Under the pieces are notes generated by a model. The model saw only the letters and a program-made list of their open reading frames with translations, ran no database searches and had not been told where the DNA came from. A DNA stretch of 64,000 nucleotides from NCBI GenBank assembly GCA_017437125.1, contig JAFSBV010000001.1, positions 62,001 to 126,000 on the forward strand, read 5' to 3'. Below are positions 44,068-60,786 of the stretch, in pieces. A program made the translations under genes and the position numbers. Within the stretch, counting starts at the first letter, position 1; the number at the start of each line of letters is the position of its first letter. The DNA comes from Bacteroidales bacterium (GTDB lineage: Bacteria; Bacteroidota; Bacteroidia; Bacteroidales; UBA932).

Positions 44068-44098
44068 TTGATAATCAGAATTTTATTATGTATTTTTG
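44068..44098 (+). promoter_or_regulatory. Promoter of the 16.5 kb envelope gene block
   Basis: TTG (44068-44070) and TATTTTTG (44091-44098), 20 bases apart, followed by C. The leader to the TlpA-like ATG is about 60 bases. It contains a stem CGTGCGT (44109-44115) with ACGCGCG (44124-44130) and a loop of eight bases. No other -7 box is seen between the genes of the block. Confidence 0.7.
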
Positions 44099-44166
44099 CT
44101 CGATTTAACGTGCGTGCGCCTGTACGCGCGTAAGGAGAACAGGATATTTATTTAATTTTTGATTAT

Positions 44167-44652
44167 ATGAGAACATTTCTTCTGAGCATTGCGCTCTTCA
44201 TCTCTGCAGTATGTGCTGCACAGGTTCCTTCAGTTACAGTAGAGAATGCCAAAGGCGAGGCTTTTGACACAAAGACTCTTCTGGAAGAGGGAACCCCGAT
44301 GATAATTTCCTTCTGGTCAACTTCATGCAAGCCATGTATCCGTGAGCTTGATGCTGTCTATGACGCACTCCCTGACTGGCTCGAGGAGGCGGACTTCCGT
44401 GTAGTGGCAGTCTCTACAGATGACAGCCGTCTTCTTGCAAAGGCCAAGTCATTTGCACAGGGCCGTGGCTGGGGTGAAGATTTCCAGCTTCTCTTCGACA
44501 AGAACCAGGACTTCATGAGAGCCATGAACGTTTCTGTCGTTCCTCATGTGTTTGTGGTTGACGGAAAGGGCAAGGTCGTGTATTCTCACACTTCTTATGT
44601 TCCTGGAAACGAGATCGAACTTTTCGAAGCTATCAAGAAGTGCTCTAAATAA
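44167..44652 (+). CDS. TlpA/ResA-like thioredoxin
   Basis: A 161-residue exported thioredoxin-fold protein. A signal peptide (about 1-18, MRTFLLSIALFISAVCAAQ) precedes a TlpA-type domain: FWSTSCKPCIREL holds the CxxC pair Cys54/Cys57, with the cis-proline region VSVVPHVFVVDG. It would reduce or isomerise disulfides in the periplasm. It is the first gene of the envelope block, 28 bases before the first barrel gene, so it may serve the cysteine-containing lipoproteins downstream. Confidence 0.88.
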   Translation: MRTFLLSIALFISAVCAAQVPSVTVENAKGEAFDTKTLLEEGTPMIISFWSTSCKPCIRELDAVYDALPDWLEEADFRVVAVSTDDSRLLAKAKSFAQGRGWGEDFQLLFDKNQDFMRAMNVSVVPHVFVVDGKGKVVYSHTSYVPGNEIELFEAIKKCSK

Positions 44653-44680
44653 CCCTGAACAGCTAAACTGACTTGATAAG

Positions 44681-46255
44681 ATGAAAAGATTCATTCTTGT
44701 GATCAGCCTTGTCTCGGCTTCTCTTGCCCTTGCCGCTCAGGAAAACGGTTATGTGACCGGAAGCTTTGAGACCAACAATCACCTTTATGTTGACGATCAG
44801 GTAAATGATTTCGTTTCTGACGAAGACAGGATCGGTTCCAACAACTACCTCAAGGTTGACTATTACAACGGAAACTTCTCGGCCGGTATGCAGCTCGAGT
44901 CATATCTTCCTGCACAGATCGGATTCCCTGAGGAACTTTCGAAATATGCTCTCAGCAATCTGTATGTCAACTGGAAGGACGATGCATTTCAGGTTACTGC
45001 CGGAACATTCTATGACCAGTTCGGAAGCGGACTTCTTTTCCGCAGTTGGGAGGACCGTCTTCTTGGTCTGAACAATGCACTTATGGGTGCCCGTTTCGCA
45101 TATAACTGGGAGGATAAGGTGGCTTTCAAGGCCATCTGGGGCATGCCTCGTCTCGGAATGGAGTTCACTGACACACAGGTGCGTGGTGCTGACCTCAGCA
45201 TTTCTCTTTCAAACATCATCGGACTTGATGATATCCTTCTTTCTGTGGAAGGCTCGCTTTTGAATAAATATGCGAAAATCGGTATTGATGCCGAGGAGGC
45301 CGGTGGAAAGCCGAATTCTTTGGGATTCTCAGGACGACTGAACTTCGACTGGAACGGATTCTTTGCAAAGGGAGAATATGTGGATCTCGGCAAGAAGCTC
45401 GTGGCGCTTGAGACCAAGCATGGAAACGCTCAGCTCCTTGAACTCGGTTATAACGGAAGGGGACTGGGTGTCACCATGACCGGACGACGTCTTGAGTGGA
45501 TGGGGCAGAACATCCTTGCCAACTCCACTTCTTCAGCAAACCTGATGTCGTATGTGCCTGCGATGAGCACGCAATACACTTACATGCTCACCACCCTTCA
45601 TCCATATAATCCTCAGGTAGGAGACGCTTCGACCATGGCATTCAACAGCGGTGAGATCGGAGGACAGATCGATGCGTTCTACAATTTCCGTCGCGGTACT
45701 GCAATCGGAGGAAAGAGGGGTATGAAGGTTCACGCGAACTTCTCGACATATTATACCCTTGCTCAGGAGGGCACTGCACAGGCCGGAAACCTTCTTTTCA
45801 GAGACTTCAGCTTCGATGTCGAGAGACAGTGGACAAAGGAGTTCAAGATGGTTCTCCTCTATTCGCTTCAGGAGTATAATCCGGGATACGGACAGTACAA
45901 GACCACATGGCTGTCGAACATCTTTGTGGCAGACCTTCTCTACAAGTGGACATCACAGCTGTCAACACGTCTCGAGCTTCAGTATCTCAAGACATATGAG
46001 GACAAGAAGGACTGGATGGCTGCACTCCTTGAGGTCAATTTCGCACCTCATTGGAGCGTGTGGGGAAGCGATATGTACAACCATGGCATGACCAAGAAGC
46101 ATTACTATAACTTCGGAGTCAGTTATGCCAAGGGACGTACCCGCGTCGCTCTCGGTTACGGACGCTACAAGGACGGCTTTATCTGCTCGGGAGGTGTATG
46201 CCGCTCGATTCCTCAATATACCGGAGCGAACTTTACTGTAACTACTTCATTCTAA
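44681..46255 (+). CDS. DUF6029-like outer-membrane barrel protein (copy 1)
   Basis: A 524-residue protein with a signal peptide (about 1-19) and a beta-barrel-like sequence ending in phenylalanine (NFTVTTSF). Conserved stretches such as ENGYVTGSFETNNHLY, GTFYDQFGSGLLFRSWEDR, AIWGMPRLGMEFT and the end VCRSIPQYTGANFTVTTSF identify the Bacteroidota family annotated DUF6029. It is paralogous to 49250-50902. A role as an outer-membrane pore or assembly partner is inferred, not known. Confidence 0.8.
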   Translation: MKRFILVISLVSASLALAAQENGYVTGSFETNNHLYVDDQVNDFVSDEDRIGSNNYLKVDYYNGNFSAGMQLESYLPAQIGFPEELSKYALSNLYVNWKDDAFQVTAGTFYDQFGSGLLFRSWEDRLLGLNNALMGARFAYNWEDKVAFKAIWGMPRLGMEFTDTQVRGADLSISLSNIIGLDDILLSVEGSLLNKYAKIGIDAEEAGGKPNSLGFSGRLNFDWNGFFAKGEYVDLGKKLVALETKHGNAQLLELGYNGRGLGVTMTGRRLEWMGQNILANSTSSANLMSYVPAMSTQYTYMLTTLHPYNPQVGDASTMAFNSGEIGGQIDAFYNFRRGTAIGGKRGMKVHANFSTYYTLAQEGTAQAGNLLFRDFSFDVERQWTKEFKMVLLYSLQEYNPGYGQYKTTWLSNIFVADLLYKWTSQLSTRLELQYLKTYEDKKDWMAALLEVNFAPHWSVWGSDMYNHGMTKKHYYNFGVSYAKGRTRVALGYGRYKDGFICSGGVCRSIPQYTGANFTVTTSF

Positions 46256-46279
46256 GAATATCAAACCACAGAACAACTG

Positions 46280-49189
46280 ATGAAAAATTTAATGACATTG
46301 ACAAGATCTCTTCGCAGAGCTGCTATGTGCGCAGTGCTGGCATTGCCATTGGCTACAGCATGTACAACCATCGAGGAGTATGATGATTCCGAGATCAAGG
46401 AACAGATTGACCTCATCATCAACAAGATCTATGAACTTGAGCAGAAGATGAATTCAGAGATCCAGGCTCTCAAGGATATGCTTGCAGGCAAGATAATGAT
46501 CACATCTGTGTCAACGGATGCCTCCACCGGCATTACGACAGTATCATTATCAAACGGCTCTTCTCTTTCACTTCTTCCTGAAAAGGATCTCAAGTCATTC
46601 GTTACATATATCACGCTGAGTGACGGTATTGACTATTGGGCATATATAGATGAGGACGGAAAGAAGCAGCTTTTCCTCGATGAGAAGGGCATGGCTATTC
46701 CTGTCGTATCTGATGTTCCGGAGGTCGTTGTCAAGGACGAACAGACATGGCTCGTGATCGGCGGTGTAGAGTATCCGCTTTCAGGAAACTCTGTTTTCTC
46801 TGATTATGAACTGATAAAGGATGAACTTACAGGTGAGGTTTACGCTGTTACATTCACATTCGGCGATGATATGTCTTTCACGGTATCCGTAGAGGGCGCA
46901 AGCGGATTCTTCTTTGTGAAGCCTTCAGGCTGGTCAACAGTGGCAATTTCCGATTACTATGTTGAGAATGGTCTGACAGAGAGAGTCCAGATAGACGCAA
47001 GAGGCGTTGTTGACTATGTTCTTCAGATTCCTGACGGATGGCGTGTCAAGGAGTACGAAGACATCTATATGGGTGCAAAGTATTTCGATATCACTGCACC
47101 TTCTGAGGATCTTGTAAGGAGTGGAGTAGCAGCGGCTGACGGCGATCTCAAAGTTGTGGCTGTGCTCGAGGGCGGAAAGGCAACTGTCGCAAAACTTTAT
47201 CTTTCAACTGAGCCTTTCAAGGAATTCCAGGTTTCCATGGGCAAGGTAAATGTGAAAATGTACAACGGTCTTCAGAAATTTGTTTATGGTGTGACCGATG
47301 CATTGTGGTTCAAGGAGTCAACAGCCTTTGAAACGGCCCAGACTCTTCTGGAGGCCTATGAGTATCCTCTCGGTTACGGTGTAAGTGATTTTGATCTTGA
47401 AGATGCTGATGCTGAGGAGATTGCCGGTCAGGCTCTTACTCCGGGACGCAGATACATACTCTGGGCTATCCCTGCTCAGTATTTTGCTGATTCAGATGAT
47501 GCGGGATATTATCTCAAGGAAGGTACGATGGTAAAACAGGAATTCCGTCATTCTTCAGTCAGGTTCGAAGTCGGCAATGAAAGCATAAAGGATGCTCATC
47601 TCAGCATGGAACTCAAGGGTGTAGGATCTTATTATGCGTCAGTTCTCCCTAAGGCTGATTTCATGATCGAGGATATCGTTTATAATCTTAACAATCCTGG
47701 TTACTACACATCAAGGACTACTCCTATGACATATGAAGGTTCTGTGTTTGAATTCGCAGGAATGGAGGCTGAACAGGCTACGGACTATGTGGCATGGTTC
47801 GCTGTTGCCAATGACGGCTGGATTTATTCCGAGAGCGATGTCATCGTTTGCGAGTTCGCTACACTTGACCTTGTTTCCGGCAGTTCGGTTAAGCTTTCTG
47901 CAGGAGAGCCTGAAGTGTCGCCTACGGAAATCGAGATAGAAGTAAAGGCTTCCGGTGCAGAAAAGATATATTATACATATATGCCGGTTTCTGATTTAAG
48001 AAACTTCTCATCCGATGACGACAAGGCTGCTTATCTTTTCGGAAACGGTAAATCTGTTGAAGGTGAGTCTGTTGCTGCAAAGGCATCTGATGTCATTGAA
48101 GTGAAGCCTGGAACCGACTATGCATTCATGGCTGTAGCTACGGACCCGGAAGGCAAATACAGCGAGGTACTTACTTTGGAGTGCAAGACCGCACCGATTC
48201 AGTATAACGACATCAAGGTATCTCTCGTTCTCGAAAAGAATGATCCGGGTAATGTCGTTGTTTCAGTTGCAGCAGAAGGAGCTGTCGATTATCTGTACTG
48301 GATAGGAAGGGTTGCAGACAATGTATGGAAGAGTCCGAGCTATCTTGGAGGAAGCGCAGCCAAGGCTCAGCAGTATATGTATGCAAATGCAAGTCATGAA
48401 AGGTTTGCGAATGTGAAGGCTGCATATCCTGTGGTTGACGGAAAGATAACGATGACTGATCTGACTCCAAATACCAATTATGTCATTGTGGCTATGGCAA
48501 AGGATAAGGACGGCCTTTATTCGGAAGCTGCAGAACTCAGGTTCACACCGAGATCTGTTGCAATAGGAAATGTGGTTCTTTCTTCTGATCCTGAATGGAA
48601 GGCTGCCGAGCCGGATATTGAATGGATTCCGGAAGCATTCGAGCCGACACAGGGCATGATGTCTGGTCAGTATTCTTTCTATGTGACTATTCCTGAAGGA
48701 TTCACCGGCTATGTGCTCGGAGGAACCGATGACTATCTTACCGAAGGTGATAAGACTCTTGTGCTGTCTGCCGAAGATAAGATCCTGAAGATAATCGAGT
48801 ATGTTGACAGGCCAAGGGATTCCGACAGACTTTATGATGAGAATGCATGGATTACCGAGGGATATCCTCATGGCTATGAACTTTTCCATCATGAACATGG
48901 AAATCCGCTTTTCGGCAATGTCGTCATCTGGGCAAGTGAAGAGTTCCATGACAAGGTATGTGATTGCAAGGGATCTCTCAAGACAGAACTGATAAGGGAT
49001 GGCGAGTCATTCCCTATCACTCAGGTCCGTCATATCAATGACGGAAAGCCTGTAGAAGTCCGTCAGCCTCAGGCTATGGGAAGCAAGACCGAGGTTATCG
49101 ACAAGGTGTTTGTCGTATGTCAGGATCTTGACGGAAACTGCTACGAGCCATTTGAAATCGATGTACCTGTAGAACTGTTCAACCAATAA
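46280..49189 (+). CDS. PL29-N/DUF4988-like surface lipoprotein (969 residues)
   Basis: A lipoprotein with lipobox Cys28 (LALPLATAC) followed by TTIEEYDDSE, an acidic segment expected of surface-exported lipoproteins. Residues 35-70 form a coiled coil (EQIDLIINKIYELEQKM), then the PL29 N-terminal/DUF4988-type domain (WAYIDEDGKKQLFLD, EQTWLVIGG) and several Fn3/Ig-like segments. No lyase active site is visible. The same architecture appears in 56349-58877. A 12-bp hairpin follows. Confidence 0.78.
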   Translation: MKNLMTLTRSLRRAAMCAVLALPLATACTTIEEYDDSEIKEQIDLIINKIYELEQKMNSEIQALKDMLAGKIMITSVSTDASTGITTVSLSNGSSLSLLPEKDLKSFVTYITLSDGIDYWAYIDEDGKKQLFLDEKGMAIPVVSDVPEVVVKDEQTWLVIGGVEYPLSGNSVFSDYELIKDELTGEVYAVTFTFGDDMSFTVSVEGASGFFFVKPSGWSTVAISDYYVENGLTERVQIDARGVVDYVLQIPDGWRVKEYEDIYMGAKYFDITAPSEDLVRSGVAAADGDLKVVAVLEGGKATVAKLYLSTEPFKEFQVSMGKVNVKMYNGLQKFVYGVTDALWFKESTAFETAQTLLEAYEYPLGYGVSDFDLEDADAEEIAGQALTPGRRYILWAIPAQYFADSDDAGYYLKEGTMVKQEFRHSSVRFEVGNESIKDAHLSMELKGVGSYYASVLPKADFMIEDIVYNLNNPGYYTSRTTPMTYEGSVFEFAGMEAEQATDYVAWFAVANDGWIYSESDVIVCEFATLDLVSGSSVKLSAGEPEVSPTEIEIEVKASGAEKIYYTYMPVSDLRNFSSDDDKAAYLFGNGKSVEGESVAAKASDVIEVKPGTDYAFMAVATDPEGKYSEVLTLECKTAPIQYNDIKVSLVLEKNDPGNVVVSVAAEGAVDYLYWIGRVADNVWKSPSYLGGSAAKAQQYMYANASHERFANVKAAYPVVDGKITMTDLTPNTNYVIVAMAKDKDGLYSEAAELRFTPRSVAIGNVVLSSDPEWKAAEPDIEWIPEAFEPTQGMMSGQYSFYVTIPEGFTGYVLGGTDDYLTEGDKTLVLSAEDKILKIIEYVDRPRDSDRLYDENAWITEGYPHGYELFHHEHGNPLFGNVVIWASEEFHDKVCDCKGSLKTELIRDGESFPITQVRHINDGKPVEVRQPQAMGSKTEVIDKVFVVCQDLDGNCYEPFEIDVPVELFNQ

Positions 49190-49201
49190 TATCCGGAAGT
49201 T

Positions 49202-49237
49202 CAAATAAGGCCGACTCTGATTGACCGGCCTTATTTG
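49202..49237 (+). terminator. Intra-block hairpin (attenuator or partial terminator)
   Basis: CAAATAAGGCCG (49202-49213) and CGGCCTTATTTG (49226-49237) pair perfectly over 12 bp around a 12-base loop. A weak T run follows (ACTTT). It is between the first lipoprotein gene and the second barrel gene, with no new -7 box after it, so it may lower downstream expression or stabilise the upstream message. Confidence 0.6.
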
Positions 49238-49249
49238 ACTTTATGACGA

Positions 49250-50902
49250 ATGATGAAAGATAAGATGAAAGTGTCCTGTGCGATTGCCATCACGATGGCG
49301 GCTCTCTTTGCCGGAACGGATCTTTCTGCTGAAGAGAGCGATTACGGCAAGGATCGCTCGTCCGGTTATCTTACCGGAAGTTTTGAGACAAGCACCAGCC
49401 TTTACAATGAGGATGACAAGACTTCGGCTGTTGTTCCTGACGGTCATTTCGGTTCCAACAATTATCTGAAGCTTGATTACTATAAGGGCAGCTTCTCGGC
49501 GGGAGTGCAGATGGAGGCTTATTCGCCTGTACTTGTCGGATATCCTTCCGACCTGAAAGGTGCAGCCCTTACGAATTATTTCGCAAGATGGAATGATGAC
49601 CGTTTTTCGATTACTGCCGGAACGTTCTATGATCAGTTCGGAAGCGGACTTCTTTTCCGTAGTTGGGAAGACAGGGCGCTGGGACTTAACAATGCCTTGC
49701 TTGGTGCCCGTCTTACGTATTCATTCAATGACATCGTATCTGTAAAGGCCATCTGGGGTATGCCGCGTTTCGGCATGAAGTTCAGCGAAACCCAGGTCAA
49801 GGGTGCGGACGTGAGCTTTGCATTGTCGAATCTTGCAGGATGGCAGAATATCTATTGGGCTCTGGAAGCTTCCGTGATGGACAGATATGAGGCTCTTGAT
49901 GACCAGAGAAGGCTTGACGGATGCAGTCCGAATACGACAGGATGGTCGGCGAGGACAAACTTTGAGCATAAGGGCTTCTTCCTTAAGGCGGAATATGTGG
50001 ATGCCGGTCAGAAGTACTATTACAACACTTCTTATTCGGGAGAAGGACAGATGTATCACCGCAAGCGTGGAAACGCCCAGCTCATCGAAACGGGATATAA
50101 TGGAAACGGTCTTGGTGTGAATGTGGCTCTCCGTCGTCTCGAATGGATGGATTCAAAGGTCGTTACAGGATCCAATTCCACTGTCAACATGCTGAACTAT
50201 GTCCCGGCTATGTGTACGCAATATACATATATGCTTACTACCCTTCATCCATACGGAGCAAGGACAGGAGAGATTTCATCGAGGTTCACGAACAGCGGAG
50301 AAATCGGAGGCCAGATTGACGTGTTCTATAATTTCAGACGCGGTACGAAGATCGGTGGAAAGCGCGGAATGAAGGTTCATGCCAATTTCTCGACATATCA
50401 TACTATAGCGCAGGAAGGTACGTTCAAGGCCGGAAACATGCTTTTCCGTGATCTCAGCGTTGATGTGGAGAGGCAGTGGTCAAGGAAATTCAAGTCAACT
50501 GTACTCTGGTCTATGCAGGAGTATAGTCCGAAATATGGAGCAAACAAGACCACCTGGCTTTCCAACATATTTGTGGCGGATCTTCTTTACAAGTTCAACA
50601 GCTCTTTCTCCACACGACTCGAGCTTCAGTATCTCACTACTCAGGAGGACAACAAGGACTGGATGGCAGCCCTTGTAGAAGTCAGTTTTGCACCGAACTG
50701 GAGCATCTATGCCAGCGATATGTATAATCACGGCATGACAAAGGTTCATTATTACAACGGAGGCGTAAGCTACACGAAGTCAAGAACCAGGGTTGCATTG
50801 AGTTACGGCCGCTTCAGGGAAGGACTTCTATGTTCAGGCGGCGTATGCCGTCAGATACCTGCATATACCGGTGCAAATCTTTCAGTAACAATGTCATTCT
50901 AA
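49250..50902 (+). CDS. DUF6029-like outer-membrane barrel protein (copy 2)
   Basis: A 550-residue paralogue of the protein at 44681-46255. Shared blocks include GYLTGSFETSTSLY, GTFYDQFGSGLLFRSWEDR, KAIWGMPRFGMKFSETQ and the C-terminal VCRQIPAYTGANLSVTMSF, with the terminal aromatic residue of an outer-membrane barrel. A signal peptide covers about 1-26. The two copies differ enough to have separated early and are not a recent duplication. An ATG three bases into the gene (MK versus MMK) is an alternative start. Confidence 0.8.
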   Translation: MMKDKMKVSCAIAITMAALFAGTDLSAEESDYGKDRSSGYLTGSFETSTSLYNEDDKTSAVVPDGHFGSNNYLKLDYYKGSFSAGVQMEAYSPVLVGYPSDLKGAALTNYFARWNDDRFSITAGTFYDQFGSGLLFRSWEDRALGLNNALLGARLTYSFNDIVSVKAIWGMPRFGMKFSETQVKGADVSFALSNLAGWQNIYWALEASVMDRYEALDDQRRLDGCSPNTTGWSARTNFEHKGFFLKAEYVDAGQKYYYNTSYSGEGQMYHRKRGNAQLIETGYNGNGLGVNVALRRLEWMDSKVVTGSNSTVNMLNYVPAMCTQYTYMLTTLHPYGARTGEISSRFTNSGEIGGQIDVFYNFRRGTKIGGKRGMKVHANFSTYHTIAQEGTFKAGNMLFRDLSVDVERQWSRKFKSTVLWSMQEYSPKYGANKTTWLSNIFVADLLYKFNSSFSTRLELQYLTTQEDNKDWMAALVEVSFAPNWSIYASDMYNHGMTKVHYYNGGVSYTKSRTRVALSYGRFREGLLCSGGVCRQIPAYTGANLSVTMSF

Positions 50903-50912
50903 ACAAATAACG

Positions 50913-51998
50913 ATGAATATATATAGATTATTGATTCCTTTTCTGGCGATTGCCGCGGCTGCCTCATGTTCAGGTCAGATAGATCCGGATGATGAGAAGC
51001 CGGAAGGCCCTGTCACCCCTTTCACCCTTACAGTTGACAAGACAACGATCGAATCGGATGGCAAGGATCAGGCTATTCTGACGATCAAGGATGCCGAAGG
51101 AATTGTGCTCACTGATGCAGAACATATAAGAAATACATCTTTCTGCATCAATGAGACAGGTGAGTGGCTTTCAGGTATGGTGCTCGACAGACCGAATGTA
51201 TTTACATCCATTACAGATGGAACTTTTACCATCAGTGCCATGTATGACGGTGAAATGTGTGAGAACGAGGTGAAGGTGACTTCCCGTAACCGTTCCGTTT
51301 ATGAGAAGTTCCATAAGAATGTCGCGATTTACCGCTTTACAGCGACGTGGTGCGGCTATTGTCCTGATATGACAGAGGCACTTTCCAAGGTCGGTGATTA
51401 TACGAAGGATCACAGCATCGTCATGGAAATGCATTACAATGACGAGTTTTCTTTAGAAGCTCTTGCGAACTATGCGGGAGATGTTTATAAATTCAGCGGT
51501 TTTCCTTATTGCCGCTATTCTCTTGATACAGAATCTGGTAACAGGACAAGAAACGATATCGAGTCTTTTGTGAAGGAACAGATGGTCAATCACCCTGCAA
51601 GAACCGGCATAAAGGCATCGACATCTGTATCAGGAAATACCATGAAGGTCGAGGCCGAGGTTTCGGCAAGTGCGTCAGGGAAGTATGACCTGGCGATGGC
51701 AATACTCAAGGACAAGTGTATCCCATCTTCACCTGAGGCATATGAGGAAATATATAATGATGTCATCATCTCCATATCAGGCAATTATTTCGCCATGTCA
51801 TCAGATGCGTCTTTCAGCCTTGAAGCAGACGGGAAGAAGTCCTTTACGAGGGAGTGGACAAATGATATCCTGACTACAGACGATGCCAAGGACTGCAGGG
51901 TGGTTCTCTTTACGCTCGTGTCTGACGGCGGAAAGGTAATTATTGACAATGCTGTTGAAATGCCTGTTGGCGGAGGCGTGGATTACAGGTATAATTGA
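50913..51998 (+). CDS. Omp28-like thioredoxin-fold lipoprotein A (CGYC)
   Basis: A 361-residue lipoprotein. The lipobox ends at Cys19 (AAAASC), followed by SGQIDPDDEKPEG. An Ig-like module (about 33-125) precedes a thioredoxin-like domain with Cys147-G-Y-Cys150 in FTATWCGYCPDMTEAL. The C-terminus VIIDNAVEMPVGGGVDYRYN matches the Omp28 family tail. It is first in a tandem of three and begins 10 bases after the barrel gene. Confidence 0.82.
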   Translation: MNIYRLLIPFLAIAAAASCSGQIDPDDEKPEGPVTPFTLTVDKTTIESDGKDQAILTIKDAEGIVLTDAEHIRNTSFCINETGEWLSGMVLDRPNVFTSITDGTFTISAMYDGEMCENEVKVTSRNRSVYEKFHKNVAIYRFTATWCGYCPDMTEALSKVGDYTKDHSIVMEMHYNDEFSLEALANYAGDVYKFSGFPYCRYSLDTESGNRTRNDIESFVKEQMVNHPARTGIKASTSVSGNTMKVEAEVSASASGKYDLAMAILKDKCIPSSPEAYEEIYNDVIISISGNYFAMSSDASFSLEADGKKSFTREWTNDILTTDDAKDCRVVLFTLVSDGGKVIIDNAVEMPVGGGVDYRYN

Positions 51999-52006
51999 TC
52001 GGAATC

Positions 52007-53146
52007 ATGAAATCTATCGTAAAATTTCTTCTCCCGGTGTTGATGCTTCTTCCGTTTTATGCATGTTCCGGAAATCTTGATGATGAGGGGGATGCTGCTG
52101 AATACGGAGTACCGGAAGGAGTACTGAGAATATTTGCAGACAAGACCGAGATCGCTGCAGACGGAGTCGAGAAGGTCACCTTTACCGTTGTATATGGATC
52201 TTCTGACGTATCCGATATGTCCGGTATGGTCATAAGTCATGAAAGGGGTGGTGTCGTGACAGAGCTTCCTGAAGGAAAGCATGAGTTCACATCGACAGCT
52301 CCCGGCGAGTATGTCTTTACCGCGACATATGACTATGGCGGAAAGAAGCATACCGACAACTCCGTGAAGGTCACTGTCAGGTCTTCCGGAAACCAGATGT
52401 CTTCCGGCTACAGACAGAAGATGATTGCAATGCAGTTCACTTCGGTGGGTTGCGTCAACTGTCCTATCCTTGCAGAGGCATTGAAGAATGTACAGAAGAA
52501 CTATCCTGACATGATCATTCCTGTTGCCTTCCACCTTGACTATGATGTGGAGGATCCGATGACCCTTTCCATGAACAGCAGGTTCTATTCGAGGCTTTCG
52601 GACAAGGATGACCATTCGCTGGGACTCCCGATGTTCGCCTTCAATTTCAGAAAGAGTTCCCAGCCGATCATAAACGAATACGCCAAGATCGTATCTGAAA
52701 TGGAACTTCAGGCAGAACTTTATCCTCCGGTATGCGGCGTGGCTGTAGAGACATCATATGACGAGGGTTCAGGCAAGGTGCAGATCGATGCAAAGTTCAG
52801 ATCTGATGTCGCAATGGATGCAAGGTACCATATCTTCCTCCTCGAAGACGGATATGAATATTATCAGGCCGGATTCGATGGTGATGAATACGTCCATGAC
52901 AATGTCCTCAGATACATATCGTCGGATAATGTACTGGGATCGAAGATCGAGCAGGGAAAGGTTCTCGAGCCAGGTCGTGAATATGTCGTGAGCAAGTCTG
53001 TGACGCTGGACGGCTCATGGAATGCCTCGAAAATGAGGGTTGTGGTGGCGATGCTCTGTTCTTATGACGGAGGCGAGACTTACTGCAGCAACAATGCCAA
53101 TGAATGTTCAATAGGAGAATCAGCAGATTATTCATATGAAGATTAA
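52007..53146 (+). CDS. Omp28-like thioredoxin-fold lipoprotein B (CVNC)
   Basis: A 379-residue paralogue. Lipobox Cys20 (LLPFYAC), then SGNLDDEGDAAE. Ig-like module (about 40-125) and thioredoxin-like domain with Cys149-V-N-Cys152 in FTSVGCVNCPILAEAL, lacking the usual tryptophan before the first cysteine. The C-terminus is ADYSYED after CSNNANECSIG. An in-frame TTG at 51995 overlaps the previous stop, but the ATG at 52007 gives a perfect signal peptide. It overlaps gene C by 11 bases. Confidence 0.82.
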   Translation: MKSIVKFLLPVLMLLPFYACSGNLDDEGDAAEYGVPEGVLRIFADKTEIAADGVEKVTFTVVYGSSDVSDMSGMVISHERGGVVTELPEGKHEFTSTAPGEYVFTATYDYGGKKHTDNSVKVTVRSSGNQMSSGYRQKMIAMQFTSVGCVNCPILAEALKNVQKNYPDMIIPVAFHLDYDVEDPMTLSMNSRFYSRLSDKDDHSLGLPMFAFNFRKSSQPIINEYAKIVSEMELQAELYPPVCGVAVETSYDEGSGKVQIDAKFRSDVAMDARYHIFLLEDGYEYYQAGFDGDEYVHDNVLRYISSDNVLGSKIEQGKVLEPGREYVVSKSVTLDGSWNASKMRVVVAMLCSYDGGETYCSNNANECSIGESADYSYED

Positions 53147-54167
53147 AAGATTTATATACGGCATATGCTCATGCCTCGTGTTGGCATCGCTGTTTGCCGG
53201 CTGTTCCGGAAATATCGATGTCAATGAGGAAAAGGAAACCCTTTACCTGTCTGCGGATGTCGAGGAGATAATTGCGGACGGAAAGACTGCCGTGACATTT
53301 ACAGTGCTGTACGGAACAGAAGATGTCACATCTCAGGCGTCTGTAAAATGTGTTTCGGGAAATGCGGAGGTCTCAGGCAATTCCTTTGTCGCCGATGCGA
53401 TAGGCACATATGTTTTCCGTGCCTTTTACGATGACGTGGTGTCGGAGGATGTCGAGGTCGTTGCGAAATCACGTTTCCAAAGACGTGTATGCGTAATGGA
53501 ATTCACCGGCACATGGTGTGCCCAATGTCCTGCCGGAGCCACTACGCTTAACTTCCTGATCAGCAGGACATACAAGGATCAGGCATTCGCTCTGGCTTTT
53601 CATAATGACGATCCTTTCGCCCTGCCGGTGGAGACCGAGCTTCATACCATGTTCGGCTGCGGATCATATCCTGCATATGTTACAGATATGCGTGATGCCG
53701 GACTTCTGAATGACGGAGGATGCAGCGAATCCATCGAGAAGTCTCTCTATGAATCAGAGACCCATTGTTCCGTTTCTGTGTCATGTTCTTATGACAGATC
53801 TTCCGGAAAAGTCAATGTGACTTCCGGAATCTTCTCCGAAAAGGATGCTTCCTACAGGCTTGCAGCCTATGTGATCGAGGACAAGGTGAAGGGAGAACAG
53901 GCTCAGGCAGACGGCACTGTTGACAAGGACTATGTCCATCGTCATGTCGTACGTCAGATGCTTTCTGCAAGTGTGAAGGGAGACGATATGGGCAGGATTG
54001 CCGCCGGAACTGAAAAGACATCATCATATTCGTTTGCTGCTGACAAAGGATGGAATATGGATAACGTGTCTGTCGCTGTCCTTGCTGTCGATGAGGAGGG
54101 CCATGTGAACAATATGGCCATATGCTCTGCCGACGGAGGAAAAATGGAATACGGATATATAAAATAA
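53136..54167 (+). CDS. Omp28-like thioredoxin-fold lipoprotein C (CAQC)
   Basis: A 343-residue paralogue. Lipobox Cys23 (ASLFAGC), then SGNIDVNEEKE. Ig-like module (about 32-115) and thioredoxin-like domain with Cys128-A-Q-Cys131 in FTGTWCAQCPAGATTL, the most thioredoxin-like of the group. It ends MAICSADGGKMEYGYIK. The 11-base overlap with gene B indicates translational coupling; gene D follows after six bases. Confidence 0.82.
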   Translation: MKIKRFIYGICSCLVLASLFAGCSGNIDVNEEKETLYLSADVEEIIADGKTAVTFTVLYGTEDVTSQASVKCVSGNAEVSGNSFVADAIGTYVFRAFYDDVVSEDVEVVAKSRFQRRVCVMEFTGTWCAQCPAGATTLNFLISRTYKDQAFALAFHNDDPFALPVETELHTMFGCGSYPAYVTDMRDAGLLNDGGCSESIEKSLYESETHCSVSVSCSYDRSSGKVNVTSGIFSEKDASYRLAAYVIEDKVKGEQAQADGTVDKDYVHRHVVRQMLSASVKGDDMGRIAAGTEKTSSYSFAADKGWNMDNVSVAVLAVDEEGHVNNMAICSADGGKMEYGYIK

Positions 54168-54173
54168 ATACAT

Positions 54174-56333
54174 ATGAAAAGATTATTTCAATTTGCATTG
54201 ATGCTGGTTGCAGCGGTGATTTTCAGCTGGTCCTGCGAAAGAAAGGGACCGGATCCTGAAAAGGAACCCGAGGAGAGCGAGTTTTACGAATTCCCTCTGA
54301 ATGTTTCTGAAACATTCTTTGAGGCATCTGCCAACGGCGTTTCAGTTCAGGTGACGGAGGTGGCTGAAGATAATGTCGTATTTGATCTGATTCCGGGTGA
54401 GGGAGTGAAGTCATACCGCCTTCTCCTTTATCCTAAGGCCCTGCTGTACAACTATCTTCTCAATGAAGGATGTGTCGAGGCTTCGCAGGAGGTCTGCGAG
54501 GACGTTCTGATAAAGTTCCTGTCTGACGGCTCTTCGGCTCCTTATGTGTTCAATTCCGACACTGATGATTTCGCATCCAAGGAATTCGACTGGATCAATA
54601 CGGAATATGCATCAGGTTCACTTGTGCCTGACTGCGACTATTATATCGTGGTGCTCGGATGCTATGATGATGAAGGAACGAATCCGGCATCTCTCAGCAT
54701 ATGCAGCTTCACGACTTCCGCGAAGGAGCTTGTCGGAGATCCTGCCATAGCTATCGAGGCCGAGGTGGGATACAGGGCTTTCATCGTAAGATATCACCCT
54801 AACGAGGACTGCAGCCAGTTCGTTCATTGGATCTGGACTACAGAGGAGATGGGTGGATATATCGATCTTTTCGGAGACAGGATGATGCGTGACTTCTGCC
54901 GTACCATAGCGGTGACTTATGATGCACGTGCAGAAGAGAATCTTGCCATAAAGAGGACATTCGACATTTCCGATGATGTGGTAAGGGAGAATACTGCAAT
55001 TGCTGTCGCGCTGGACGTAAACGGTACTCCGTCAGCTGAGATCGTCAGAAAGGACTTCACTCTTCTTGAGGTTCCGGAAGGGGAATTCACTCCTGAGGCA
55101 TCGATTTCTGCAGGTTCGCGTATAAGCGCTACATTGGCATATTTTGACGTGACCATGGAGAAGAGCTGCATGTCATGCTTCTACAGGATATATACTGCAG
55201 AGGAGATCGAGCAGATCAAGTCCATGTCCGAGGAGGAGAAATATGAAGTCGCTTTGAGCATCGCAAACGAGGGATGGGGAGTGCAGAACTTCAGGTTCTC
55301 ATTCAATACGGATCTCGGAACCCTTACAGGAGATTCATATTCGACTTCCGACGAGCATGTGGCCGAGCTGAAACCGGATTCGGAATATGCCCTTGCATAT
55401 GTGGCAAAGAACTATTTCGGTGAACTTTCTGAGCTCTGCTTCACGGATACTTTCAGGACCAAGCCGCTTGTACGCGACACTCCGGAGGCTTGCGAGGCTG
55501 ATGTCACCCTTACATTCACAGACATTTCACGCTGGGGATTCAAGTATAATTTCGATTATAACTATGACAAGACTGCATGTTACAGGTTCCAGCTTGTCTG
55601 GCCTTACGTGGAAGATGATCCTACGACAGATGCTGATGACGATCAGGTTCGTCCTCCTCACTATCTTGATGATGCAGATGATCGTGACAAATGGATGGAA
55701 TTCTTCTTCGACACATTCGTTGAAAGCCCGGCTGTCGGCCCTGTACCTGTAGTGAACATGTGGGAGGCCGAGAAGTCAGGTCATGACGAACTTCATATGT
55801 ACGGATACGAGTCCGGAGTGACATATGTCTTTGCATACTGTGCCGAGGATATCAACGGAGTTGTCGGCCCTGTGAAGTTCGTGCATGTGACAACAAGCGA
55901 GCCGAATCCGGGTCCGAACCCTCAGGTAGCAATCGAGGATCTCAGGTATGATGACGAGACCGGAGCTATTGTGGGAAGAATCGTCGCTAATGAGGATTCG
56001 AAGTCCTTCTCATATTTTACGGTGACATCATCAAGCGCGGACCTGTATTCAAACTGCGCCTTGAGCGATCTTGTCAATTCAAGCAGGCGTGACTATTCCG
56101 CATATATCACTTCATGGGAAAAGAACCTCATTGAATATGGACTTCAGTCATATTCGGAGTCGGTCAACATTTCTGCTGCAACCGAAAAGAATTCATCCGT
56201 TCCAGTGCTCATAGCAGCCATTTCGGTGGGAGAAGAAGACGGTGTGGATGTTTACAGCCCGTTGGCAAGCAAGATATATTATCAGGGAGAATTCTGGGAT
56301 CTTTCAGACTTCAGGACACCTCCGACCGAGTAA
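54174..56333 (+). CDS. Repeat-type surface lipoprotein (719 residues)
   Basis: A lipoprotein with lipobox Cys21 (FSWSC) followed by ERKGPDPEKEPEESE, strongly acidic and surface-export-like. Fn3/Ig-like segments can be seen at about 30-185, 190-300 (IAIEAEVGYRAFIVRYHP), 305-430 and 585-710. An Asp-rich insertion (DDDQVRPPHYLDDADDRDK) at about 485-505 could bind a divalent metal. No enzyme motif recognised. It lies six bases after the third Omp28-like gene. Confidence 0.75.
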   Translation: MKRLFQFALMLVAAVIFSWSCERKGPDPEKEPEESEFYEFPLNVSETFFEASANGVSVQVTEVAEDNVVFDLIPGEGVKSYRLLLYPKALLYNYLLNEGCVEASQEVCEDVLIKFLSDGSSAPYVFNSDTDDFASKEFDWINTEYASGSLVPDCDYYIVVLGCYDDEGTNPASLSICSFTTSAKELVGDPAIAIEAEVGYRAFIVRYHPNEDCSQFVHWIWTTEEMGGYIDLFGDRMMRDFCRTIAVTYDARAEENLAIKRTFDISDDVVRENTAIAVALDVNGTPSAEIVRKDFTLLEVPEGEFTPEASISAGSRISATLAYFDVTMEKSCMSCFYRIYTAEEIEQIKSMSEEEKYEVALSIANEGWGVQNFRFSFNTDLGTLTGDSYSTSDEHVAELKPDSEYALAYVAKNYFGELSELCFTDTFRTKPLVRDTPEACEADVTLTFTDISRWGFKYNFDYNYDKTACYRFQLVWPYVEDDPTTDADDDQVRPPHYLDDADDRDKWMEFFFDTFVESPAVGPVPVVNMWEAEKSGHDELHMYGYESGVTYVFAYCAEDINGVVGPVKFVHVTTSEPNPGPNPQVAIEDLRYDDETGAIVGRIVANEDSKSFSYFTVTSSSADLYSNCALSDLVNSSRRDYSAYITSWEKNLIEYGLQSYSESVNISAATEKNSSVPVLIAAISVGEEDGVDVYSPLASKIYYQGEFWDLSDFRTPPTE

Positions 56334-56348
56334 TTTAATCTTATTGAT

Positions 56349-58877
56349 ATGAAGACTTTATATAATATCATGATGAAGGCAGTGATATCTGCAGTATGCA
56401 TCTTCACTGCCGTTTCATGCGATTCTTATGATGATTCTGAGATCTGGGACGCTCTGAATGAACTCAAGGAAAAGGTGGAGGCTCTTGAAGCCAAGGTCGC
56501 TGACAATGTTTCGGCAATTCAGTCCATGGTGACTCTTGAGAGCATCAAGGCATTTGAATTCGATGCCGAAGCTGGTAAGGTTACCCTTACCCTCCTTGAC
56601 GGAAAGACTGTAGTGATAGACCTGAATGTCACCGGATATCCTCTCATTACTGTCGTAAAGGAGGATGACGGCAATTATTACTGGGCATTATGCAAGGACG
56701 GCAGCACTGAGCTCCTTATGATAGACGGAGCCAAGGTTCCGGTATCAGTTACCCCTGATCTGAAGATTTCCTCTGAAGGTGAGTGGATGATTTCCGCTGA
56801 CGGAGGAAAGACCTGGGTGGCGACAGGAATATTCCAGAAGACCTCGGAAGAGGGCGGGGAATCAGCTGTATTCTTTACTGATGTCAGGATTGACGGAGAT
56901 ATGCTCGTGCTTACTCTTGCAGACGGAACTGTCGTGAAGGTTGCCGTGGCAGGTGAGGCAGGCTTTGCAGTGACTCCTGATTCTCTCTGGTTCTCGAGGA
57001 CTTCTATGGTCAGGACTGCCGCAGTCGAGATGAACAATGTCAAGTCATATACCATCACCGAAAAACCTGAAGGATGGAAAGCATCGATGGATGAGTCATA
57101 TCTCAGCGTGACATCACCGGAGGACTTCAATGTTTCTGCCGTATCAGGTACTGTAAAGATACTTGCCTTGTTCGAAGGTGGAGCACAGCCTGAAATCATT
57201 TCGGTTGCAGTGGCATATGAACCGTCGATCAGTCTCTCGAAGAACAATGATGAGATTGTCGTGACAATGTCGGAGCATACAGGTGATGACTTCTCGGGAT
57301 ATCTCCTTTATGCATGGAAGGAGTCGGAATTTACCACTGATGTAGCAGTTCAGTGGCTCAATACCGAAGGATATAAGGATACCCCTCGTGCCGGTTCCGC
57401 ATCATACAGGATCTCCGAACTTGCGGACATCGATGAGAATGAAAAATATATTGTCTTTGCTGTTCCATATCTTCCTTCTGCACAGGTGGCACAGGGTGAT
57501 ATGGCATATGAGGCAAGCGACCTTCAGACCATCGTATATGGCAGCAAGTCCATGACCTGGTCATTGTCCGACATAAGATATGACTATGCTCATCTGAATG
57601 CGGAATTCTTCGATGTAAAGGAATATTACGGCGGATTCTTCGAGGCAGGTGCATGGAATGCATATGGAAGGGACAATGTCCTGGAATCACTTTCATATGA
57701 CGCTCTGCTCTCATGCAAGACACTCAGCTATGACGGCCCTGCAAGCGCTTTCCCTTATGGTGAAGAAGAATCGGATCTCATGCCTGCAACCGAGTACCTC
57801 GTATGGATGCTTCCTGTTTCGGACAAGAAGAAGTATTCGGCAGAAGATTTCGTGACAATGCCTTTCACGACTCCTGCACTTGCGAAGGATTCATCCATCC
57901 CTGCACCGAAGGCAAATGTAACAGATGTAACCGTCTCTGGCTTTACTGCTGAAGTTACCCCTGCGGCAGGTGCATACAAGACATATTCTGCTGTTTTCCG
58001 TTCTTCTCTTATTCCTGACAACGAGCTCGAGCTTGTTACCAATATAATCAGAAAGAACGATTATTCGAAAGGAAACGAGATCAATACGGTCACTACCGGA
58101 AGCTTTGATTCAAAGTCTGAAGTGTGCCTGCTCTCGGTGTCTGTTACAGAAGACGGTCATTACGGAAAGGTTCTCAATAAAACAGTCAAGATCAAGGAAC
58201 TCGAATATTCCAAGGATCTCTCGGTTACTGTGACTGACATCGCACATGGACTTGGTGATGTGACTCTGACTCTGGAGTTCACTGGAAATCCTGTATCGAT
58301 CACATATTTCGCCGAGACCTTCACGTACTATACCGATGATGCTCTTCAGGAACTTCTTGCCCTCGGACAGTTCGGCAATGCATCTAAGGTGGCGATTTCA
58401 AAGCTCGAAGGAGGCAAACTCAATATATCGGGTCTTACTGTAGGTTCTCTATATACATTCTATGCAGTGGTTTCTGATGCAGATGCAGTATCTTCATACC
58501 TTTACAAGTATGAGTTCACTCCAAGGGTGGAGGTTGACTATATCCTCGACTCATCTGCTGGCTATGAATACGGAATGCCGTCATTGAGCGGCTCATGGAG
58601 CGGTAAGAACACATATCTGATGAATGTGGAAAAGCCGTCCGAGTGCGTCAGATACTGGCTTTTCAAGGGTGATTCGGAATATTTTACAGGTGATCCGTGG
58701 ACTGATTCGGACAAGATAATCACACGTCAGTATTCGGAAGTCACTGTCCATGAGAAATCAGAATCAGGTCTTACATATACCCATATGCATAAGGCTTCAC
58801 GTATATATATGGTATGGCTTGATGATAAGGGCGGTTACCATGCCATTTACGAATATGATCCTGAAATGCCTCAATAG
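56349..58877 (+). CDS. PL29-N/DUF4988-like surface lipoprotein (842 residues)
   Basis: A lipoprotein with lipobox Cys24 (FTAVSC) and DSYDDSEIWDAL after it. Residues 30-57 are a coiled coil (ALNELKEKVEALEAKVADN), then the PL29 N-terminal/DUF4988-type domain (about 60-200; GYPLITVVKEDDGNYYWAL) and a BACON-like segment (GFAVTPDSLWFSRTSM), with Fn3-like modules beyond 290. It has the same layout as 46280-49189. It is 15 bases after the preceding gene and 12 before the protease. Confidence 0.78.
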   Translation: MKTLYNIMMKAVISAVCIFTAVSCDSYDDSEIWDALNELKEKVEALEAKVADNVSAIQSMVTLESIKAFEFDAEAGKVTLTLLDGKTVVIDLNVTGYPLITVVKEDDGNYYWALCKDGSTELLMIDGAKVPVSVTPDLKISSEGEWMISADGGKTWVATGIFQKTSEEGGESAVFFTDVRIDGDMLVLTLADGTVVKVAVAGEAGFAVTPDSLWFSRTSMVRTAAVEMNNVKSYTITEKPEGWKASMDESYLSVTSPEDFNVSAVSGTVKILALFEGGAQPEIISVAVAYEPSISLSKNNDEIVVTMSEHTGDDFSGYLLYAWKESEFTTDVAVQWLNTEGYKDTPRAGSASYRISELADIDENEKYIVFAVPYLPSAQVAQGDMAYEASDLQTIVYGSKSMTWSLSDIRYDYAHLNAEFFDVKEYYGGFFEAGAWNAYGRDNVLESLSYDALLSCKTLSYDGPASAFPYGEEESDLMPATEYLVWMLPVSDKKKYSAEDFVTMPFTTPALAKDSSIPAPKANVTDVTVSGFTAEVTPAAGAYKTYSAVFRSSLIPDNELELVTNIIRKNDYSKGNEINTVTTGSFDSKSEVCLLSVSVTEDGHYGKVLNKTVKIKELEYSKDLSVTVTDIAHGLGDVTLTLEFTGNPVSITYFAETFTYYTDDALQELLALGQFGNASKVAISKLEGGKLNISGLTVGSLYTFYAVVSDADAVSSYLYKYEFTPRVEVDYILDSSAGYEYGMPSLSGSWSGKNTYLMNVEKPSECVRYWLFKGDSEYFTGDPWTDSDKIITRQYSEVTVHEKSESGLTYTHMHKASRIYMVWLDDKGGYHAIYEYDPEMPQ

Positions 58878-58889
58878 TATATTTTTCAG

Positions 58890-60689
58890 ATGAAAAGGAT
58901 CATTCTGTTTATATCGATGCTTCTCTTCCTTGGCGTATCGTGTGTCAGGGAAGAGGGCAGTACTTCTACAGGTCTGGACTCCATAGAGAATCCACGTGCC
59001 GACAAACTCGTTTCCAAATATGGAGAAACGGTTTCAGTTACATTTCAGGCCGACGGAGCATGGACCGCTGCCTTGGAACTAAAGACAGGAGAAGGCTGGG
59101 CCGAGATCTCCCAGATAAAGGGTAACGAGGCTGCAGGCAAAGGAACTGTCAGGATCAACTTCTCTGCAAACGAAGGAGATGAGCGCAGTGCTGAACTCTA
59201 TGTGTCAGTAGAGGACAGGGAGCCGGAGCTTGCCGCTGTCTTTACTCAGGCAGCCGGCGAGAGCATATCCGGACTTTCCGCATACCTTAATGATTATATG
59301 CATAAGCGTCTGCTTGAGGAATATCTCTGGGCGGACGAGTATGCCGGTCTCGATGTCGATATGAAGGCATCATATGATCAGTTCCTTCCTGTTAACCTCG
59401 GCAGAATGAGGACCAACAACGAGGATGGCGGATATTTCAGGGACAATACTGCAAATCCCGGTCAGCGTTACATATATTCTCAGATATCTGAAGTTACTTC
59501 AACCAAGACATATGTCGCTACCAGATCAGGAAGCCTGCCTTCGGCATATGGGCTCGGAATAGCCTCTTTCTATGCTTCTCTCATGGAACAGGGAAAGGAT
59601 GCAATCATGCTTACGGTAAGCTATGTATATCCGGATTCTCCTGCTGCCGAGGCCGGCCTGAGAAGGGGAGACTGCATTTTCAATGTCAATGGCATAAGGC
59701 TTACGCAGAGCAATTATGAAACTGTCGCTTCAGAACTGACGGATCGTCCTGAGGGCTCATATGATATAGGATTCTTAAGGTTTGATCCTGATGAAGCTCA
59801 GGGAAAGTACGTGCTCAACGAATACTCCGTTTCTGTCGCTCCAGGCACATTCGGCTACAATCCGGTGATATATTCGGATGTCATGTCTGTTGGTGGCGTG
59901 AAGATAGGATATATGGTTCTCGAAAGCTTTGATTCTTCGACTCAGCCGGCTCTGGAAAAGGTTCTCGGCGAATTCATCGAGGCCGGAATAGACGAACTCA
60001 TTCTGGATCTGAGGTTCAATACAGGTGGCGAAGTCCAGCAGAGCAGGTATCTTGCAAGCTCGATTGCAGGACGAGGCTTTGATGATATGACCTTCTGTGA
60101 CCTTCAGTTCAATGACGGAAGTCTTGAAACATGGAAATTCCGCAGCGGCCCGAATGAGGTTGACAAGCTCGGTGTCGCTCCTGAAATACCAGGACTCGAC
60201 CGTCTGTGGGTGATAATGTCTGAAAGGACAGCCTCGGCCTCGGAGCTGATAATCAACGGTCTTGAAGGCGTAGGATTCAGCACGGTTCTGATCGGAAGCC
60301 GGTCTGAAGGAAAGAATGTAGGTATGGTTGTAAGTCAGACCGTTTATGAGGGACGTCGTTTTGAATTCGCCCCTGTAACATATAGGGCGCTGAATGCCGA
60401 GGGTGAGTCCGGACCTCATGACGGCTTCACTCCTCACGAAGGATTCGAGATGAACAATCAGAATACCAGCACATCAGATGACCTGGACAACATGTTCCCG
60501 TATTCATTCGGAGATTGGGGCAATATCGATTTCAATATCGCTCTTCAGTATGCGTGTGCCGGAATCTACGGCTCCGTGTCATCGTCTGTCAGATCATACC
60601 CTTCTCCGTTCATTCATGTTGCACCATTACCTGAAAAGGAACGTCCTTTGGGACGCTTCGGCAATGCTGTGTATTTGAGAGAATTGTAG
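58890..60689 (+). CDS. BACON-PDZ-S41 lipoprotein protease
   Basis: A 599-residue lipoprotein (Cys18, FLGVSC) with a BACON-type beta-sandwich (about 33-128, VSVTFQADGAWTAAL and ERSAELYVS), then an S41 N-terminal part, a PDZ domain (about 220-300, SPAAEAGLRRGDCIFNVNG) and an S41 protease core (LILDLRFNTGGEVQQS). Catalytic residues are Ser449 in RTASASELI and Lys475 in SEGKNVG, 26 apart. Unlike the 6852 protease it is tethered by lipid and probably faces outward. It ends the envelope block, followed by a long inverted repeat. Confidence 0.88.
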   Translation: MKRIILFISMLLFLGVSCVREEGSTSTGLDSIENPRADKLVSKYGETVSVTFQADGAWTAALELKTGEGWAEISQIKGNEAAGKGTVRINFSANEGDERSAELYVSVEDREPELAAVFTQAAGESISGLSAYLNDYMHKRLLEEYLWADEYAGLDVDMKASYDQFLPVNLGRMRTNNEDGGYFRDNTANPGQRYIYSQISEVTSTKTYVATRSGSLPSAYGLGIASFYASLMEQGKDAIMLTVSYVYPDSPAAEAGLRRGDCIFNVNGIRLTQSNYETVASELTDRPEGSYDIGFLRFDPDEAQGKYVLNEYSVSVAPGTFGYNPVIYSDVMSVGGVKIGYMVLESFDSSTQPALEKVLGEFIEAGIDELILDLRFNTGGEVQQSRYLASSIAGRGFDDMTFCDLQFNDGSLETWKFRSGPNEVDKLGVAPEIPGLDRLWVIMSERTASASELIINGLEGVGFSTVLIGSRSEGKNVGMVVSQTVYEGRRFEFAPVTYRALNAEGESGPHDGFTPHEGFEMNNQNTSTSDDLDNMFPYSFGDWGNIDFNIALQYACAGIYGSVSSSVRSYPSPFIHVAPLPEKERPLGRFGNAVYLREL

Positions 60690-60701
60690 GATTTCCTATT
60701 T

Positions 60702-60775: not shown

Positions 60776-60786
60776 GATAGAGTATG

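Follow-up and report, generated by a model that had tools for sequence, protein, structure and literature searches.

A TlpA–DUF6029–Omp28 gene module of Bacteroidales as a possible thiol relay to the cell surface

Closest described systems

The relays of DsbD and TlpA (DsbE) known to us end in the periplasm. Here we describe a block of ten genes (16.5 kb, positions 44167–60689) in a 64,000-nucleotide stretch of a Bacteroidales genome (GTDB lineage UBA932; GenBank assembly GCA_017437125.1, contig JAFSBV010000001.1, positions 62001–126000 of the forward strand; hereafter the window), which resembles these relays in its match to the TlpA family and, in some lineages, in an adjacent gene for DsbD. 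The block is an enlarged copy of a core module of three genes in the order TlpA > DUF6029 > Omp28. Because the DUF6029 barrel is flanked by thioredoxin-type proteins and carries invariant cysteines, and because type IX-tailed Omp28 proteins and, in some lineages, DsbD are linked to the module, we consider it nearly an even chance that the core acts as a thiol-disulfide relay for the outer side of the outer membrane.

The nearest working analogue is the pneumococcal CcdA–Etrx–SpMsrAB2 system, in which, according to the accessible text, an electron pathway leads from the membrane protein CcdA to surface thioredoxin-fold lipoproteins (PMC3914529). It differs from the module in that its Gram-positive host has no outer membrane, in the absence of a barrel, and in its partner, a methionine sulfoxide reductase. 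The MtrCAB conduit shares the scheme of an inner redox protein, a barrel, and a surface redox protein, but employs multiheme cytochromes (as described in the available part of PMC7198977), whereas no CxxCH heme motif is present in the ten block proteins, so the likeness is a functional analogy only. HBP35 and Omp28 of Porphyromonas gingivalis (structures 5y1a and 2r2c) have thioredoxin and Omp28-type parts in common with the block but were studied singly. In its accessible text, the study of HBP35 places the protein on the cell surface and reports a CxxC-dependent reduction of insulin; it names no physiological electron donor (PMC2907840).

The trypsin-recruiting locus 00502–00509 of Paraprevotella clara includes a surface protein related to Omp28 to which a host protease binds, but 00502 has predicted WD40 and Ig-like domains, and the main text of the paper never uses the word thioredoxin (PMC9477747). 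A link to this locus was dropped because of the different architecture of the Omp28-related protein. The nearest literature is a preprint in which surface thioredoxins of Muribaculaceae, one of them HBP35-like, are tied to a high-fat diet and proposed to take part in iron uptake; neither DUF6029 nor TlpA is named in the part of it that is available (PMC13404670). The families of the individual parts are already known. The assembly itself is undescribed in the literature searched, which covered surface thiol relays, Omp28 thioredoxins, DUF6029, DUF4988, and the CXXC motif of MtrB, with most of the subscription literature outside this scope. DUF6029 is common in Bacteroidales yet mentioned by a single paper of the same literature; P. 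gingivalis locus tags and the accessible texts yielded no functional data on any DUF6029 gene, and “antigen PG91” was discarded as a DUF6029 candidate, in part on the basis of a title.

A conserved TlpA–DUF6029–Omp28 module

The core genes and their additional copies in the window are the following.

44167–44652, + strand: TlpA-type thioredoxin-fold protein (PF00578, 63 bits; cut-off 26)
44681–46255, + strand: DUF6029 barrel, copy a (PF19494, 564.6 bits)
49250–50902, + strand: DUF6029 barrel, copy b (PF19494, 598.4 bits)
50913–51998, + strand: Omp28a lipoprotein with CGYC at 51351–51362 (PF11551, 36.2 bits)
52007–53146, + strand: Omp28b lipoprotein with CVNC at 52451–52462 (PF11551, 62.1 bits)
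53136–54167, + strand: Omp28c lipoprotein with CAQC at 53517–53528 (PF11551, 95.4 bits; structure modelled)

A scan of named genomes with DUF6029 copy a recovered 12 loci, from eleven metagenome-assembled genomes (MAGs) of Bacteroidales and the isolate Bacteroides propionicigenes NSJ-90 (locus L038). All 12 keep the order TlpA > DUF6029 > Omp28a and continue, up to the limit of each contig, with Omp28b > Omp28c > lip8 > large lipoprotein. Nine of the eleven MAG loci show 78–83% identity, and eight of these nine stem from deer or water buffalo. An earlier note on this DNA, made from the sequence alone, had proposed synteny in other genomes as a check of the block, and in these 12 loci the genes are indeed not scattered.

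DUF6029 is present in 165 of the 295 Bacteroidales genomes sampled (109 of 177 genera), mostly with one copy among the matches listed, and in 69 of 247 genomes across the phylum (67 above the cut-off). Within the genus of the window, it turned up in 10 of 37 genomes, many of which are incomplete. Among 99 Bacteroidales DUF6029 genes (loci L040–L139, excluding L062, which overlaps L061), the next gene on the same strand encodes TlpA upstream in 86 cases and Omp28 downstream in 89; both neighbors are in place in 79. The loci were hand-picked from the DUF6029 matches, with those at contig ends retained, and the genes were called by a picker of longest open reading frames (ORFs), which can lose a gene where a longer antisense ORF overlaps it. 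There is no TlpA within two genes upstream in L044, L045, L060, L061, L068, L069, L070, L072, L073, L077, L083, and L099; the L061 entry is a second DUF6029 copy located behind a large lipoprotein gene (PLN1, see below), and L060 starts beside a contig end. Loci without a same-strand Omp28 among the two nearest downstream genes are L042, L065, L070, L075, L083, L099, L105, L109, L123, and L129. The association extends to 20 divergent DUF6029 proteins from across the phylum, for 18 of which a TlpA is encoded no more than two genes away, on either strand.

In L044 and L072, which belong to one family, the position of TlpA is held by a 142-amino-acid gene that follows a large one (717 or 727 amino acids); the large gene of L044 is M6 peptidase-like.

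An invariant cysteine pair in the DUF6029 barrels

Both barrel proteins match PF19494 over nearly its full length (1–538 and 9–538 of 538 positions; cut-off 27) and share 63% identity. Each carries a CSGGVC motif near its C-terminus, at residues 502–507 in copy a (46184–46201), which contains no other cysteine, and at residues 528–533 in copy b (50831–50848). The earlier note had recognized the two barrels but overlooked this pair, which is their decisive feature. In an alignment of 53 DUF6029 proteins, no cysteine columns other than these two are invariant (53 of 53), and they form a CxxGxC motif just before the last strand. The motif lies within the last 60 residues of all 145 distinct DUF6029 proteins longer than 400 amino acids, a set that includes 20 divergent members with E-values up to about 2e-11. 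In 93 of the 145, its cysteines are the sole ones beyond residue 35.

An AlphaFold model of DUF6029 based on 11 close sequences is weak (pLDDT 57) but shows a small hairpin at CxxGxC between two strands and short turns on the opposite side. Mainly because the C-terminus of outer-membrane barrels is usually periplasmic, the pair is predicted to sit in the last extracellular loop. Foldseek matches of the model are generic barrels (LptD, OprC, ushers, and TonB receptors), and the fold is therefore assigned only as “barrel”; the best hits of a DUF6029 profile in the PDB are OmpA fragments with an E-value of 0.025. Pfam detects no TonB-dependent plug in either copy.

Thioredoxin-type partners of the barrel

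The TlpA of the window combines its PF00578 match with a CKPC motif at residues 54–57 (44326–44337). CxxC is present in all 131 linked TlpA proteins, although the first such motif is unusual in three of them, and a strict lipobox occurs in just two, so that linked TlpA looks like a soluble periplasmic protein. The extended motif in the window is SCKPC (44323–44337), which is found in 13 of the 131 linked proteins, whereas 88 have WCKPC; the replacement may shift the redox potential of TlpA.

All three Omp28 proteins of the block exceed the cut-off of PF11551 (34.9 bits) but stay below that of the Omp28 lipoprotein family NF033782 (14.5, 45.8, and 78.7 bits; cut-off 150). All 122 linked Omp28 proteins have a CxxC motif and 108 have a loose lipobox; judging from these motifs, they look like lipoproteins. 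In twenty aligned Omp28 proteins of expanded blocks, the lipid cysteine and the CxxC do not vary, nor does a proline that would fit a cis-proline loop. The model of Omp28c (pLDDT 89.9) consists of an N-terminal Ig-like beta domain, a thioredoxin-type fold, and a beta sandwich, with the strand–CxxC–helix arrangement of thioredoxins at residues 118–124, 128–131, and 131–145. In the PDB, the Omp28 profile finds P. gingivalis HBP35 (5y1a; E 2e-16), Omp28 (2r2c; E 6e-5), and thioredoxins. A Foldseek search with the whole model gave low TM-scores and no thioredoxin among the matches listed, which counts against a thioredoxin fold; the assignment is based on the secondary structure of the model, the conserved residues, and the profile matches.

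A sorting tail of the type IX secretion system above the Pfam cut-off is present in all 11 long Omp28-type CxxC proteins of other loci that were scanned (the scan left out the long Omp28-type genes of L064 and L108 and the 448-amino-acid one of L133). Ten of the tailed genes are located directly upstream of TlpA and that of L133 one gene further up; the tailed protein of L105 does not match the Pfam Omp28 profile itself. The tails indicate that these proteins are located outside the cell. A long Omp28-type protein downstream of the module in L076 has no such tail at the threshold used, and Pfam finds no Por_Secre_tail domain in the ten block proteins of the window, which therefore do not qualify as type IX cargo; a surface position is predicted for their Omp28 lipoproteins.

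Small proteins with two closely spaced cysteines (226–249 amino acids; CxGTNC in two cases) are encoded downstream of the trio in L041, L046, L052, L059, and L076, and that of L041 has a type IX tail by Pfam. They are possible substrates or partners.

Linkage to DsbD

In five of the 99 loci, from three Bacteroidales families, a DsbD gene lies beside the module or a few genes away (L051, L064, L068, L076, and L129). The order TlpA > DUF6029 > Omp28 > DsbD is shared by four genomes of family f20 (L051 and L140–L142). In another family, the trio is followed by a small protein, a long Omp28-like protein, and DsbD (L076, L143, and L144), and the divergent locus L173 reads TlpA > DUF6029 > DsbD. The DsbD gene of L068 runs on the opposite strand, and in L069 only a 142-amino-acid ORF resembles the N-terminal part of DsbD. 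DsbD was identified by Pfam in L051 and by a four-sequence profile elsewhere. Such arrangements, where they occur, are telling.

The count depends strongly on the sample. Four of the five cases fall among the first 39 loci, where the adjacency was first noticed (in L051, L064, L068, and L076), against one among the 60 loci subsequently chosen by DUF6029 alone (L080–L139). L140–L152 do not enter the estimate, since L140–L144 were picked for a DsbD nearby or in the family. With one DsbD per 3.5 Mb, the pooled expectation is 0.47 (P 0.0001), and with two per 3 Mb, P rises to 0.005, but these values are driven by the discovery set because the later 60 loci show no excess. The DsbD_N domain is near-universal, being found in 249 of 295 Bacteroidales genomes, and the genome of the window has a DsbD_N match and one DsbD_TM gene.

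Lineage-specific expansion of the block

By the evidence, the block falls into two parts, the redox core of wide distribution and a surface expansion confined to certain lineages; the earlier note had treated the ten genes as a single novelty. Over the core, the window has gained the second barrel, the set of three Omp28 proteins, and the following four lipoproteins.

46280–49189, + strand: PLN1, DUF4988-headed (Pfam) lipoprotein with FN3-like C-terminal region
54174–56333, + strand: lip8, large lipoprotein with FN3-like region, full-length only alongside the expanded block
56349–58877, + strand: PLN2, DUF4988-headed lipoprotein (Pfam)
58890–60689, + strand: S41 protease lipoprotein with PDZ and BACON-like domains (PF03572, 59.4 bits; cut-off 24)

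The heads of PLN1 and PLN2, previously labeled PL29-N, are Pfam DUF4988 domains; the hyaluronate lyase family of BT_3328 (PL29) is matched at the N-terminus only, at 41.2 and 87 bits, far below its cut-off of 1100. lip8 resembles the PLN proteins (hhalign probability 96.6% across 248 columns), which in turn resemble a large lipoprotein of another lineage (100%). It also holds a CxxC motif (CMSC, residues 332–335), which raises the count of block proteins with this motif above the four noted earlier, namely TlpA and the three Omp28 proteins. lip8 is full-length in 6 of 61 relatives, every one of them with an expanded locus; among 198 genomes of the order, only that of the window has it at full length, and ten others give short, weak matches.

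The protease belongs to the S41 peptidases but scores below the cut-off of NF058627 (187.1 versus 455 bits), and its BACON-like domain is marginally below threshold (24.2 versus 25 bits). Ser451 and Lys475 fit the motif of the catalytic dyad, which looks intact. An S41 gene follows also in L037, in L038, and in three genomes from the same genus as the window (L060, L061, and L071). Seven Pfam-scanned neighbors of short or variant loci include none, the S41 profile being built from one sequence. The gene looks accessory to the module. Of the interpretation suggested earlier, the surface assembly and its thiol-redox chemistry are supported, whereas proteolytic maturation is not.

A duplication of DUF6029 with PLN1-type genes between the copies occurs in the window and in one relative (G021, L061/L062); G032 may also have two copies, the second at a contig end. 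Omp28 units are fused in a single frame in the same two relatives, three in G021 (L061:10849–13395) and two in G032 (L060:10668–12263). Locus L044, with three Omp28 proteins of 504–583 amino acids, is a second case of tripling.

A possible thiol relay and its alternatives

In the proposed relay, cytoplasmic thioredoxin would reduce DsbD in the inner membrane, and DsbD would reduce periplasmic TlpA. TlpA would act at or inside the DUF6029 barrel, the carrier of the invariant CxxGxC pair, and electrons would pass on to the surface thioredoxin domain of Omp28 lipoproteins or type IX-secreted Omp28/HBP35-like proteins, which would reduce or reshuffle the disulfides of surface or captured proteins. 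That DUF6029 itself is a thiol-active barrel, through which TlpA electrons reach the extracellular pair and recharge the surface thioredoxins, is a tentative proposal. The simplest joint function predicted for the expanded block is that disulfide-rich proteins would be captured, reduced, and cleaved, in a device that would hold disulfide-stabilized proteins, open them by reduction, and cut them.

Several observations weigh against the relay. TlpA is not the next gene upstream in 13 of the 99 Bacteroidales loci, Omp28 is not the next downstream in 10, and an Omp28 lies no more than two genes downstream in just 10 of the 20 divergent loci. A neighboring DsbD is seldom found, and unevenly so between the two sets of loci; the adjacency is at chance level in the 60 later loci (0.26 expected, P 0.23), and in the genome of the window the DsbD_TM gene is on another contig and does not adjoin the block. 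The cysteine hairpin (residues 523–537) is modelled with a pLDDT below 50, and the pair could be a static structural disulfide. The last point is central to the main rival, in which the barrel transports something unrelated to thiols, and TlpA, perhaps with Omp28, is an oxidase, isomerase, or reductase dedicated to setting a single structural disulfide of DUF6029. Periplasmic Dsb proteins set the disulfides of LptD in this manner. Such a maturation system accords with the single conserved cysteine pair, whose spacing is that of a hairpin-stapling disulfide, and with the rarity of linked DsbD; a thiol-disulfide protein encoded beside its own substrate would yield the same linkage. It poorly explains why, in 89 of 99 loci, the next gene after the barrel encodes another thioredoxin-type protein, one with a lipobox, and why type IX-tailed Omp28 proteins are linked, and we regard it as unlikely. 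Owing to the split of the DsbD estimate, we have graded it higher, and the relay and the path through the barrel lower.

Capture of heme, copper, or another thiophilic metal by Omp28 and the loop cysteines of the barrel, with import to TlpA as periplasmic acceptor, is suggested by HBP35, the closest solved relative, which binds hemin and supports growth without hemin (according to the accessible text of PMC2907840), and by the copper barrel OprC among the top Foldseek hits of DUF6029. We consider it improbable, as the TM-scores to OprC are about 0.4 on a low-confidence model, with LptD ranking alongside, and neither a TonB-dependent plug nor CxxCH motifs were found in these proteins. The proposal of the earlier note, in which the redox and protease components of a surface assembly would serve to mature that assembly's lipoproteins, agrees with the common orientation of the S41, redox, and lipoprotein genes; the redox core, however, occurs without lip8 across the order and the phylum and therefore does not serve mainly to mature the lipoproteins of the block, which leaves this reading a slim chance. 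Least probable is a Wzi-like barrel for polysaccharide export, a role raised in the available text of PMC9603273, where the 28 Wzi-barrel hits in the vicinity of OPX genes include many with HHpred similarity to DUF6029. Although 30 of 36 DUF6029 genomes have OPX, just one (G056) encodes it within a few kb of DUF6029, a linkage thus tested and found to be rare, and the usual neighbors of DUF6029 are thioredoxin-type proteins.

If the thiol relay exists, reducing power would cross the outer membrane without cytochromes, and the module would be a thiol counterpart of cytochrome conduits, spread through Bacteroidota. The surface thioredoxin HBP35 of Bacteroidota is known to be active, yet the reductant of such proteins beyond the outer membrane is undescribed in the literature searched; the module supplies candidates and the exact cysteines. 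Some gut lineages would have supplemented it with a protease and adhesin-like lipoproteins in order to open proteins held by disulfide bonds, with consequences for the handling of disulfide-rich host proteins by gut bacteria.

Gene layout and expression signals

ORF calls and measured distances agree with the ten same-strand genes of the earlier note; the gaps between successive genes are 28, 24, 60, 10, 8, −11, 6, 15, and 12 bases, and the intergenic signals are as follows.

44068–44098, + strand: candidate promoter TTG-N20-TATTTTTG, the single consensus match on the + strand of the block
49196–49242, + strand: stem-loop in the sole long gap, the 60 bases that separate PLN1 from DUF6029 copy b (−23.2 kcal/mol, z −5.2 for the stem-loop)
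60700–60777, no strand assigned: very long, near-perfect hairpin (about −60 kcal/mol, z −10.7) between the S41 gene and a convergent gene

The site at 44068 fits the Bacteroidota-type promoter consensus, TTG-N20-TAnnTTTG. With 0.51 matches expected from shuffled sequences, the promoter formerly called clear is suggestive, not strong; scans for sigma-70 promoters and terminators yielded no more than in shuffles. The stem-loop is possibly an attenuator or an mRNA processing site, and the hairpin is likely a terminator that separates the S41 gene from the convergent gene of 951 amino acids.

In block order, the Pfam families are TlpA-like, DUF6029, DUF4988, DUF6029, three Omp28, no match (lip8), DUF4988, and S41 with PDZ. 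By eye, we agree that in seven proteins (PLN1, Omp28a, Omp28b, Omp28c, lip8, PLN2, and S41) acidic residues come after a lipobox cysteine; the signal peptides of TlpA and of both barrels are plain. In line with the earlier note, Pfam finds neither SusC nor SusD among the ten proteins, so the block is not a polysaccharide utilization locus, and the lack of CxxCH separates it from porin–cytochrome (Mtr) loci; it matches no named locus type that we know of.

Upstream of the block and in the same orientation, the window encodes an 877-amino-acid protein without a Pfam match and a 408-amino-acid Omp28 lipoprotein with CSWCP (37385–41244). In 8 of the 12 named loci, a similar pair precedes the block, and L068 and L069 have a relative of the 877-amino-acid protein directly upstream of DUF6029.

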